A stretch of DNA of 44,500 nt from Desulfobacteraceae bacterium (GTDB lineage Bacteria; Desulfobacterota; Desulfobacteria; Desulfobacterales; SKZT01). How positions within the stretch are numbered: position 1 is the first letter of the stretch; each line of letters begins with the position of its first letter. Both the position numbers and the translations under genes were made by a program. Positions 7,096 through 38,943 of this stretch are shown in pieces. The notes under the pieces were generated by a model. That model ran no database searches, was not told the DNA's origin, and saw only the letters and a list, made by a program, of their open reading frames with translations. The stretch covers positions 1 to 44,500 of the forward strand of contig JAABTQ010000025.1 in assembly GCA_011389745.1 (NCBI GenBank), given 5' to 3'.

Positions 7096-7308
7096 ATGGA
7101 TTTTCAGTTTTGCCCGTTTTGTGCGCACCCTCTGAAGAAAGCGATGAGCGATGGAAAAATACACCTATACTGTTCAGTGTGCGACAAAAAACATTATCGG
7201 AACCCCACGGTCGGGGTGGCTGTTGTCTTATTTGTGCAGGACCGGCTGCTCATAGTCCCCTCCTTTGGCAAAGAAAGAAAATACATAAGTCCCCCTTTGA
7301 AAAAGTAG
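7096..7308 (+). pseudogene. 5-prime fragment of a NUDIX hydrolase, cut at a repeat
   Basis: The first 55 residues look like the start of a zinc-ribbon NUDIX hydrolase: CPFCAHPL and CSVCDKKHYRNP, then GVAVVLFVQDRLLIV, which is the first beta-strand region of the NUDIX fold. The family sequence then stops. The NUDIX box (GX5EX7REUXEEXGU) is missing. The frame instead runs into the C-rich repeat at about 7283 and ends at 7308. A complete enzyme would have about 150-180 residues. The fragment begins 29 bp after the ferritin-like gene. It is most simply a gene truncated by a deletion or insertion associated with the repeat. Confidence 0.75.
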
Positions 7309-7330
7309 GATTCAGGGGGATTTTTAAGAC
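7283..7330. repeat. C-rich palindromic repeat, partial copy
   Basis: GTCCCCCTTTGAAAAAG followed by TAGGATTCAGGGGGATTTTTAA matches the left half of the repeat at 14265-14391 with a few changes. It marks the breakpoint of the NUDIX fragment. Confidence 0.75.
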
Positions 7331-14009: not shown

Positions 14010-14246
14010 ATTTCAATTGAATGTAACCTGTTTATGTGAAAAGACTTGTGCTCAATTGTAGGTGCGAATTCATTCGCACAATGTGAACCCCGTTGTCCAT
14101 TATAGAGTCTATGCCCGTTCCCCCAGGAAAAAAGTTGCTGGAGCCTCTAAGGAATTTTCTGTAAATCCGTGCCGGATTTTAAGTGCGAATGAATTCGCAC
14201 CTACAGAAAAATCGGATTTCACTCAAACAGGTTACTCATTTCAATT
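14010..14246 (+). mobile_element. MITE-like element copy 1 (complete) with 9-bp target duplication
   Basis: The element spans 14019-14237 (219 bp), flanked by the direct repeat ATTTCAATT at 14010-14018 and 14238-14246. Its ends are inverted copies based on GTAACCTGTTTGTGTGAAA. Inside, each end has a hairpin of GTGCGAAT/ATTCGCAC arms beside GTAG: 14058-14079 on plus and 14183-14204 inverted. There is no open frame of note, so any transposase must be supplied from elsewhere. Other copies are at 15846, 25671 and 38829. Confidence 0.9.
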
Positions 14247-14264: not shown

Positions 14265-14391
14265 AAGTAACTCCTCACAGGTCCCCCTTTGAAAAAGGGG
14301 GATTTAGGGGGATTTTTAAAACGGCATCAGCTTGTCAAATCCCCCCCGGCCCCCCTTTTTCAAAGGGGTGAGCAGTTACTTGTCGGTTTGG
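14265..14391. repeat. C-rich palindromic repeat, most complete copy
   Basis: The ends are inverted: AAGTAACTCCTCAC at 14265-14278 and GTGAGCAGTTACTT at 14368-14381. Inside, CCCCCTTTGAAAAAGGGGG forms a hairpin, and a complementary C-rich arm follows, so the whole unit can fold on itself. Homology with the copy at the start of the window runs on to GGTTTG at 14391. Partial copies are at 1-80 and 7283-7330. It is probably a non-autonomous repeat; no target duplication was found. Confidence 0.8.
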
Positions 14392-15386: not shown

Positions 15387-15480
15387 AATTACCTCCTTAT
15401 ATAATATGATAGATAAAATATGACAGCCTTAATTTTTCATCATACTGACATCAACTATTATGATATCAGTTTTTTTGTCT

Positions 15481-15577
15481 CGTCATTCCGGCGAAGGCCG
15501 GAATCCAGTTAAATTGCATCAGTGAATTCAAGCTGTGAGTTTTCTGAATGCCGGATCAAGTCCGGCATGACGGAGAA
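15481..15577. repeat. Paired GTCATTCCGG-type palindromic repeats
   Basis: GTCATTCCGGCGAAGGCCGG at 15482-15501 forms a hairpin (CCGGC/GCCGG). A facing diverged unit, GCCGGATCAAGTCCGGCATG, lies at 15550-15569 and ends in GACGG. The same type recurs at 28119-28190. The rest of 15387-15845 holds no gene that I can support. Confidence 0.75.
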
Positions 15578-15836: not shown

Positions 15837-16077
15837 AAATCAGACGAGTGTAACCTGTTGTGTGAAAAGACTTGTACTCAATTGTAGGTGCGAATTCATT
15901 CGCACAATGTGAACCCCGTTGTCCATTATACAGTCTATGCCCGTTGGCCCAGGAAAAAAGTTGCTGGGGGCCTCTAAGGAATTTTCTATAAATCAAAGTG
16001 CCGGATTTTAAGTGCGAATGAATTCGCACCTACAAAAAAATCGGATTTCACACAAACAGGTTACACTCAAATCAGAT
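15837..16077 (+). mobile_element. MITE-like element copy 2 (complete)
   Basis: The element spans 15846-16068 (223 bp), in the same orientation as copy 1. The flanks are AAATCAGAC at 15837-15845 and AAATCAGAT at 16069-16077, a 9-bp duplication with one change. The right inverted end reads GAGTGTAACCTGTTTGTGTG on the minus strand; the left end has lost one T. Both REP-like hairpins are present. It lies about 130 bp upstream of the AsmA-like start. Confidence 0.9.
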
Positions 16078-25661: not shown

Positions 25662-25898
25662 AAATCAAAGGAGTGTAACCTGTTTGTGTGAAATCCGATT
25701 TTTCTGTAGGTGCGAATTCATTCGCACTTAAATCCGGCACGGATTTACAGAAATTTCCTTAGAGGCCCCAGCAACTTTTTTCCTGGGGGAACGGGCATAG
25801 ACTCTATAATGGACAACGGGGTTCACATTGTGCGAATGAATTCGCACCTACAATTGAGCACAAGTCTTTTCACACAAACAGGTTACCTCAAATCAAAG
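25662..25898 (-). mobile_element. MITE-like element copy 3 (complete, inverted)
   Basis: The element spans 25671-25889 (219 bp), in opposite orientation to copies 1, 2 and 4. It is flanked by a perfect 9-bp duplication, AAATCAAAG, at 25662-25670 and 25890-25898. The inverted ends and both REP-like hairpins are intact; the right end lacks one base of the consensus. Confidence 0.92.
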
Positions 25899-26374
25899 GG
25901 TTCGTACTCCATATTTTTTAGTAAACCAGCATGATTATATCCAACCGAATTGTTCATTGAATCAGAAAATTTTGCCTCCAGGACTGGGATAATTTTTTTA
26001 TCATGAAATAACCTTACACTGGTCCTGCTCCCTTACATTTTCCGGCGGATTTTTCCCGATTCCTGTACCCAGGTTTACATGTTCAGCCATGATTAAATAC
26101 ATTGATTCGAGTATTTTTCATAAAAATATCTTATGGTAATTAAAATAAATATAAAAAATGAGTTGTGCATTTTTGCTGCGAATAAATTCGCAGCTACAGT
26201 TTATTGAATCACCTCTTCAGACAGGCGCATCAGGACACTTAAGGGATTTTGCTAAAATTTTCCGAACTTTTTGAGCGGCTTCAAAAAAAGACGTCGTGGG
26301 GGTCTTGTTGTTGAAAGATCCATGGTTTCAACCAATCATACCGCTTCTGGCCGGGTATTTTTCGGAGGCAAAAA
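25899..26374. other. Intergenic stretch upstream of glgA
   Basis: About 475 bp of AT-rich DNA with no recognisable gene. It contains the solo REP-like hairpin at 26175-26199 and should contain the glgA promoter. Confidence 0.45.
26175..26199 (-). repeat. Solo REP-like hairpin with GTAG
   Basis: GCTGCGAAT and ATTCGCAGC form a perfect 9-bp stem around AA. On the minus strand GTAG precedes it, as in REP sequences. It is related to, but distinct from, the hairpins inside the mobile elements (GTGCGAAT arms). Confidence 0.7.
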
Positions 26375-27937: not shown

Positions 27938-28118
27938 TCTGCGTCGAACAATGAATGGGACTCGATTTTCGGATGTTAATGGAAAGAGGTTTCAGGTGTC
28001 AGTGTAAAAAAGGGAATGTCCTGAACCTGACACATGACTTTTTTAACTTGTAAGTGCTCCACTTCGGCATGCGGAGCCAAAATCGGCAGGTAACATGTTT
28101 TTAGGGATGATTATTTTT

Positions 28119-28190
28119 ACGTCATACCGGCGAAGGCCGGTATCCAGGATTTTATAACATTCTGGACTCCGGCCTTCGCCGGAGTGACGG
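28119..28190. repeat. Paired GTCATTCCGG-type repeats facing each other
   Basis: GTCATACCGGCGAAGGCCGG at 28121-28140 and, inverted, CTCCGGCCTTCGCCGGAGTG at 28167-28186 with GAC following. Each half is a hairpin, and the two halves are also complementary. The repeat ends about 15 bp before the gap ribosome site, so it lies in the leader or promoter region of gap. Confidence 0.85.
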
Positions 28191-28217
28191 AACTTATTAC
28201 TTAGAAGGAGGAATAAC

Positions 28218-38828: not shown

Positions 38829-38943
38829 GAGTGTAACCTGTTTGTGTGAAAAGACTTGTACTCAATTGTAGGTGCGAATTCATTCGCACAACGTGAACCC
38901 CGTTGTCCATTGTAGAGTCTATGCCCGTTCCCCCAGGAAAAAA
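38829..38943 (+). mobile_element. MITE-like element copy 4 (truncated)
   Basis: The first 115 bp match copies 1 and 2: left inverted end from GAGTGTAACCTGTTTGTGTG, first REP-like hairpin, and centre up to CCCCCAGGAAAAAA. Then similarity stops. The second hairpin, right end and target duplication are missing. It lies just upstream of the sensor-kinase ribosome site. Confidence 0.88.

Follow-up and report, generated by a model that had tools for sequence, protein, structure and literature searches.

The window, a stretch of 44,500 nucleotides representing contig C18 of the 3.6-Mb draft genome of a Desulfobacteraceae bacterium, contains a MITE of about 220 bp in four copies (A to D), of which one is truncated. 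The MITE has terminal inverted repeats (TIRs) of 23 bp and duplicates 9 bp of its target. Copy A (219 bp; 14019-14237, + strand) runs from GAATGTAACCTG to CAGGTTACTC, its right end lacking 2 bp, with the 9-bp duplication ATTTCAATT on its left (14010-14018) and right (14238-14246) and flanking reading frames that point away from the element. This size agrees with the original prediction, made from the sequence alone, of a 219-bp unit with terminal inverted repeats and target duplications. Copy B (15846-16068, + strand) carries two hairpins (15884-15905, +; 16012-16033, -) and lies between duplications that are alike at 8 of 9 letters (15837-15845 and 16069-16077). Copy C (25671-25889, - strand) likewise has both hairpins (25706-25727 and 25830-25851), with the perfect duplication AAATCAAAG at 25662-25670 and 25890-25898. 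Copy D (38829-38943, + strand) is truncated, retaining the left TIR and one hairpin (38868-38889); the expectation that each element has both hairpins thus holds for copies A, B and C, but not for this fourth copy. The duplications of copies A, B and C were read by eye, the script having missed B (1-bp TIR deletion) and underscored A and C (end deletions).

Within copy A, a first GTAG hairpin (REP 1, GTAGGTGCGAATTCATTCGCAC; 14058-14079, + strand) is followed by a spacer (14080-14182, + strand) and by a second hairpin (REP 2; 14183-14204, - strand) that is its exact reverse complement. The two face each other with their GTAGs outward, and the same pair recurs in copies B and C. Both the predicted GTAG-plus-hairpin form in opposite orientation and the siting of the facing pair inside a unit with TIRs and target duplications are therefore confirmed in copy A. 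Each hairpin is built as GTAG followed by GTGCGAAT-TC-ATTCGCAC, giving an 8-bp perfect stem and a 2-nt loop, with the GTAG 0 nt 5' of the stem. GTAG-type REPs are described as carrying GTAG or GTGG 0-2 nt 5' of a fully paired stem of 7-20 nt with a loop of 2-5 nt (PMC6006769, section 38), and the MITE hairpins agree with this description in tag, stem and loop. The MITE core also has the form of a REPIN, in which two inverted, facing REPs form one hairpin. Allowing up to three mismatches, the hairpin pattern has 81 matches in the genome (42 and 39), many of them the same palindrome in a second register, since the palindrome fits the pattern in two registers, compared with 0 matches for the reversed pattern, which rules out chance hairpins.

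The MITE is repeated in the window's genome and in a sister genome of the same genus (G001). A DNA search yielded 27 strong rows at 26 places in the former (two halves of one copy being joined) and 40 strong rows in the latter, one of which is a core without MITE ends, leaving at least 39 MITE places. These copy numbers are lower bounds, with 40 of 46 candidates scored in the window's genome and 40 of 146 in the sister; contigs C44 and C30 of the window's genome each carry a copy at a contig end, and these may be one copy. Among the 40 of 46 candidates that were scored, all 26 matched places keep at least one TIR, and the TIR occurs at 47 places in the window's genome at up to three mismatches, compared with 1 for the control. 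Among 45 elements with both ends recognised, the 9-bp duplication is perfect in 22, against a mean of 0.52 and a maximum of 4 in 2000 partner shuffles, and every other length from 3 to 14 bp gives at most 2 perfect matches. The unit thus has the marks of a MITE, with TIRs and a duplication fixed at 9 bp; its interior is too short for a gene and holds no transposase gene. Two TIR units have no hairpin at all, namely L169 (61 bp, duplication 8/9) and, as read by eye, L153 with ATTTCAGAT on both sides, both of which may be deletions after insertion.

The distribution of the TIR is narrow. At up to two mismatches it was found only in the window's genome and G001 among the 58 genomes (own included) of the relatives search, and none was found in viral contigs. 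An exact scan of a genome collection returned 31 stretches, 30 of which lie in the MAG Desulfobacteraceae bacterium isolate CSSed162cmB_348, which is presumably G001, its TIR coordinates being the same. The 31st is on a contig whose label assigns it to a Methanomassiliicoccaceae archaeon MAG, where the same MITE with its core and a perfect 9-bp duplication is present (L166, 3652-4032), a placement that may reflect transfer or misbinning. This copy has a second palindromic element, with CGTATCTGTTTAGCGC ends, nested inside it.

The same hairpins also occur outside the MITE. Of 47 strict matches in the window's genome, 42 lie inside MITE copies and 5 outside; at up to three mismatches there are 11 clear outside hairpins (10 GTAG, 1 GCAG) and 1 doubtful one. 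These include a facing pair of 101 bp (C31:7350-7450) and a group of three hairpins (C45:40858-41039), both with spacers unlike those of the MITE by eye, and, in the window itself, a solo GTAG hairpin without MITE ends (GTAGCTGCGAATTTATTCGCAG; 26176-26197, - strand), in which the first stem pair is C-G rather than G-C. The sister genome has 164 strict-pattern matches; among the 100 no-mismatch matches listed, 40 are in or adjoin MITE copies and 60, spread over 42 places, are outside, though a few of these could fall in unscored MITE copies. The outside hairpins among the matches listed include 10 facing pairs spaced by 81-86 bp and 4 outward pairs spaced by 52-53 bp, and the sister holds a separate REPIN type of about 105 bp. 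Three of these REPINs stand in tandem at L225 (126-496) with a period of 133-134 bp, forming a BIME-like array. None of the 36 (of 42) outside places that were read has MITE ends round the hairpin, with one side hardly or not visible at contig ends (C10, C56, C61 and C138 among them); the places on C56 and C75 have identical flanks and may be one, the hairpin at C223:9951 is about 270 bp from a MITE end, and that at C188:3908 belongs to the free core treated below. Also seen outside are hairpins of a GGAT/ATCC subtype, facing pairs whose spacers are unrelated, and arrays that mix facing and outward hairpins and lack TIRs. Thirteen sister loci score 41-60 against a MITE, compared with 328-372 for three real MITEs. 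In both genomes, therefore, the hairpin is dispersed as a unit of its own, as expected of a REP, and the inner pair of the MITE belongs to a REP family that exists apart from it. The pattern was found in 3 of 291 genomes of the order; given this restriction, an origin of the REP family from the MITE is conceivable in principle.

In the sister genome, the core stands alone at one locus (G001:C188:3907-4056). Here the match to the MITE is limited to query letters 38-186, running from GTAG to CTAC with a single extra base at either end. Compared with the consensus of 41 MITE copies the hairpins are identical and the spacer is 80% alike, whereas the flanks fall to 31% and 43%, and no TIR was found in 401 bp round this core at up to four mismatches. 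This locus demonstrates that a core bounded at GTAG can exist by itself. It is most similar to MITE cores from a single G001 subfamily (up to 95.9% alike), and in a tree with an unsettled bootstrap it falls within a set of 11 of them. Because it nests among sister MITE cores, it could be a core that escaped from a MITE, or a MITE stripped of both ends by recombination, rather than an ancestor, and may be either older or younger than the MITE. Such free cores number 1 among the 40 scored sister matches and 0 among the 26 places of the window's genome, and no fresh insertion of a core bounded by its REPs was observed. At L271 (157-612), an upstream reading frame seems to take its TAG stop codon from the free core's GTAG.

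Conservation differs markedly along the unit. Across 41 copies, the hairpins depart from the consensus in 13 of 1804 cells (0.7%), the TIRs in 92 of 1886 (4.9%), the sub-terminal stretches in 63 of 1148 and the spacer in 550 of 4264 (12.9%), with gaps counted as departures and rows chosen by TIR similarity, which favours the TIRs. The hairpins are hence about seven-fold better kept than the TIRs, on which the MITE depends, and none of the 20,000 column shuffles made for each comparison gave a difference as large. Of the 45 elements, this test excluded L114 (378 bp), L269 (288 bp, with an insert disrupting its second hairpin), L166 (381 bp) and the hairpin-less L169 (61 bp). The better conservation of the hairpins could stem from sequence exchange between the two or from a protein that recognises them. 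The single-strand fold is strong, both for copy C as DNA (z -12.6) and for the core of copy A as RNA (z -8.0), and the spacers of single copies fold in differing registers. RNA-level covariation of the unit was rejected as weak, with changes on both sides in 4 of 45 consensus pairs and a covariation term of -0.32, and an Rfam scan of the window gave no family at its threshold.

Enzymes that could mobilise the hairpins were sought with profiles for RAYT-related proteins. PF01797 has 0 matches in the window's genome, while the relatives search, over 58 genomes, found it in 52. With NF047646, one RAYT of the sister genome exceeds the cut-off of 80 (contig C219, 87.4 bits), and the best match in the window's genome is a fragment of 26.8 bits at the edge of contig C7. 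The C7 fragment adjoins a different GTAG palindrome, GTAGAGACAAGGCATGCCTTGTCTCTAC, just upstream, and its frame enters a 21-bp tandem repeat. At L236 (1-603), a RAYT-like frame leaves the contig via a tandem repeat of 21 bp carrying GTAGAGACAAGGCATGCC; the neighbouring frame has the palindrome in full. The sister RAYT is flanked on both sides (L149, 1037-1212 and 1849-2026) by a near-identical repeat of about 180 bp with outward GGAG-tagged hairpins; these enclose a palindrome, TTATAACGAATTTGG...CCAAATTC, perhaps a reverse nesting. The GGAG-tagged repeats differ in sequence from the MITE hairpin, and a hairpin scan of the 3.2-kb locus found no GTAG or GCAG hairpin. A weak Y1_Tnp match at G001:C86 was set aside as an IS200 fragment by eye, its locus having no GTAG or GCAG hairpin. 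Among the matches listed for relatives in the order, none of 30 Y1_Tnp loci has a MITE-type hairpin; two have other GTAG-tagged hairpins and two have GGAG-tagged ones. The original prediction had proposed looking for a RAYT gene flanked by the same hairpin; neither draft genome yielded one, only the sister RAYT with its GGAG repeats and the sub-cut-off fragment of the window's genome. As both genomes are drafts, a RAYT may have been missed.

No autonomous partner of the MITE was seen in the window's genome in a search by TIR pairs, although a partner with diverged TIRs would escape such searches. A candidate insertion sequence between two TIRs on contig C41 (11568 to 13516) was rejected, as its frames by eye are response regulator-like and others, with no transposase recognised; nor was a transposase recognised by eye in the frames flanking three solo TIRs on contigs C5 and C12. 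Duplications of 9 bp would be compatible with several DDE families, among them IS256-like ones, and are at odds with insertion of the IS200/IS605 type. A tyrosine (HUH) transposase is thus ruled out by the 9-bp duplication as the main mover of the outer unit. Nor did an IS256-family parent gain support, the PF00872 profile having no match in the window's genome.

Taken together, the unit is very probably a non-autonomous DNA transposon (MITE) with a REPIN interior, a composite spread by its TIRs. A DDE-type transposase probably moves it in trans via the 23-bp TIRs, making the 9-bp target duplications. The interior would be a REPIN of two facing GTAG REPs, of a family also free-standing in the genus, whose members a RAYT may have mobilised in the past. 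This core would be cargo taken from the resident REP population, and its fusion with the MITE ends probably preceded the split of the two species. By way of its TIRs, the composite would afterwards have reached no fewer than 26 places in the window's genome and no fewer than 39 in the sister. Where the original prediction had offered either two mobility systems in one element or a REPIN captured by a MITE, the second is the better half and is well supported; for the two systems, no RAYT acting on these hairpins was found. If both systems were nevertheless live, the core would hop alone via a RAYT and the whole unit via its TIRs. The free core bounded by GTAG on both sides, hairpins kept about seven times better than the TIRs and the RAYT over the cut-off in the genus would agree with this. 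However, that RAYT is flanked by another repeat type, no GTAG or GCAG hairpin was found in its 3.2-kb locus, and free cores number one among 40 scored sister matches and none among 26 places in the window's genome; two live systems are unlikely. Similarly improbable is a two-tier element, its REPIN still shuttled into and out of the MITE by a RAYT working on the GTAG hairpins and also dispersed, as part of the MITE, by way of the TIRs; were it real, the better hairpin conservation would reflect their ongoing use by a RAYT or by a protein of the host.

The hairpins might instead be kept for a host function through RNA or protein binding, such as termination, protection of mRNA ends or gyrase- or IHF-type binding. 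The strong single-strand fold (z -12.6 for copy C as DNA, z -8.0 for the copy A core as RNA) and the conservation of the hairpins above the TIRs are consistent with this, yet both-side changes are confined to 4 of 45 pairs (covariation term -0.32), no Rfam family reaches threshold in the window and a terminator is ill-suited to copy A, from which the neighbouring frames point away; this function is thus quite unlikely. The last explanation, that the hairpins are the MITE's own sub-terminal transposition repeats and those elsewhere are MITE debris, fits the 42 of 47 strict hairpins inside MITE copies and the retention of at least one TIR at all 26 matched places (40 of 46 scored) in the window's genome. 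The original prediction had itself held that it would apply if the genome had no RAYT and no hairpins outside the full unit, but solo hairpins, REPIN pairs, BIME-like arrays and one TIR-free core all lie outside. Already weakened by the separate REPIN type of the sister, the debris explanation is made very unlikely by the outside GGAT/ATCC subtype, unrelated spacers and TIR-free mixed arrays and by the 13 low-scoring sister loci (41-60, versus 328-372 for three real MITEs); the hairpin-less units L169 and L153 also speak against it, though they may be post-insertion deletions.

REPIN capture by a MITE has a probable parallel in Anabaena variabilis, in which many GTAG-15 REP dimers lie inside long palindromes (Di Nocera et al. 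2013; PMC3733652, section 7). There, too, GTAG REP dimers sit within a longer inverted repeat with MITE-like arms (PMC3733652), and this is probably the same kind of nesting. In A. variabilis, however, the palindromes were not found without REPs, and section 7 of that paper reports no target duplications, whereas the MITE described here has TIRs and 9-bp duplications, its REPs occur free of it and one core is free. Beyond the A. variabilis case, the present unit adds target duplications of fixed length, a REP family that also occurs without the MITE, a core standing free and the difference in conservation along the unit. With the exception of that A. variabilis report, no REPIN in an element with TIRs and target duplications was recognised in the parts of the open-licence PMC literature that were covered. 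REPINs and BIMEs, as portrayed in parts of PMC3116915 and PMC8266576, share with the present elements two inverted REPs with a spacer and a long hairpin, and facing and outward arrangements both occur in the sister; unlike them, one REPIN type here lies inside a unit with TIRs and target duplications, and no cognate RAYT was found. GTAG REPs are organised in dimers and clusters (PMC3733652, section 5), as in the sister genome. Bacterial MITEs (Correia, RUP, Nezha and others, as covered in parts of PMC3733652 and PMC2817692) are likewise short and non-coding, with TIRs, a target duplication and tens of copies, but the present unit differs in its REPIN interior, and its autonomous parent was not found. 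In Pseudomonas, REP units and other stem-loops serve as TIRs of tyrosine transposase genes (PMC3733652, section 16); as here, REP units are fused with unrelated repeats into a larger repeated structure, yet as outlined in that section the Pseudomonas repeats flank a transposase gene whereas the MITE encloses none.

REPINs are thought to depend on RAYTs, and a REPIN inside a MITE that makes DDE-type target duplications would give REPs a second route to multiply and to outlive their RAYT. It may also account for REP-like hairpins where a genome has no RAYT to match. Across the two sister genomes the same REP is present singly, as a REPIN outside the MITE, in BIME-like arrays and within the MITE, and the pair provides a test set.

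Other repeats lie nearby. Another palindromic repeat, with AGTAACT...AGTTACT ends and CCCCTTTGAAAAAGGGGG-type arms, occurs in the window at 1-73, 7284-7330 and 14266-14390, the last adjoining copy A, and on contig C19 an AGTAACT-like repeat is inserted in a MITE copy, which thereby reaches 378 bp. Repeats with a CATTCCGGCGAAGGCCGGAATCCAG-type hairpin are present at 15472-15508 and 28111-28192, the second as an inverted pair.
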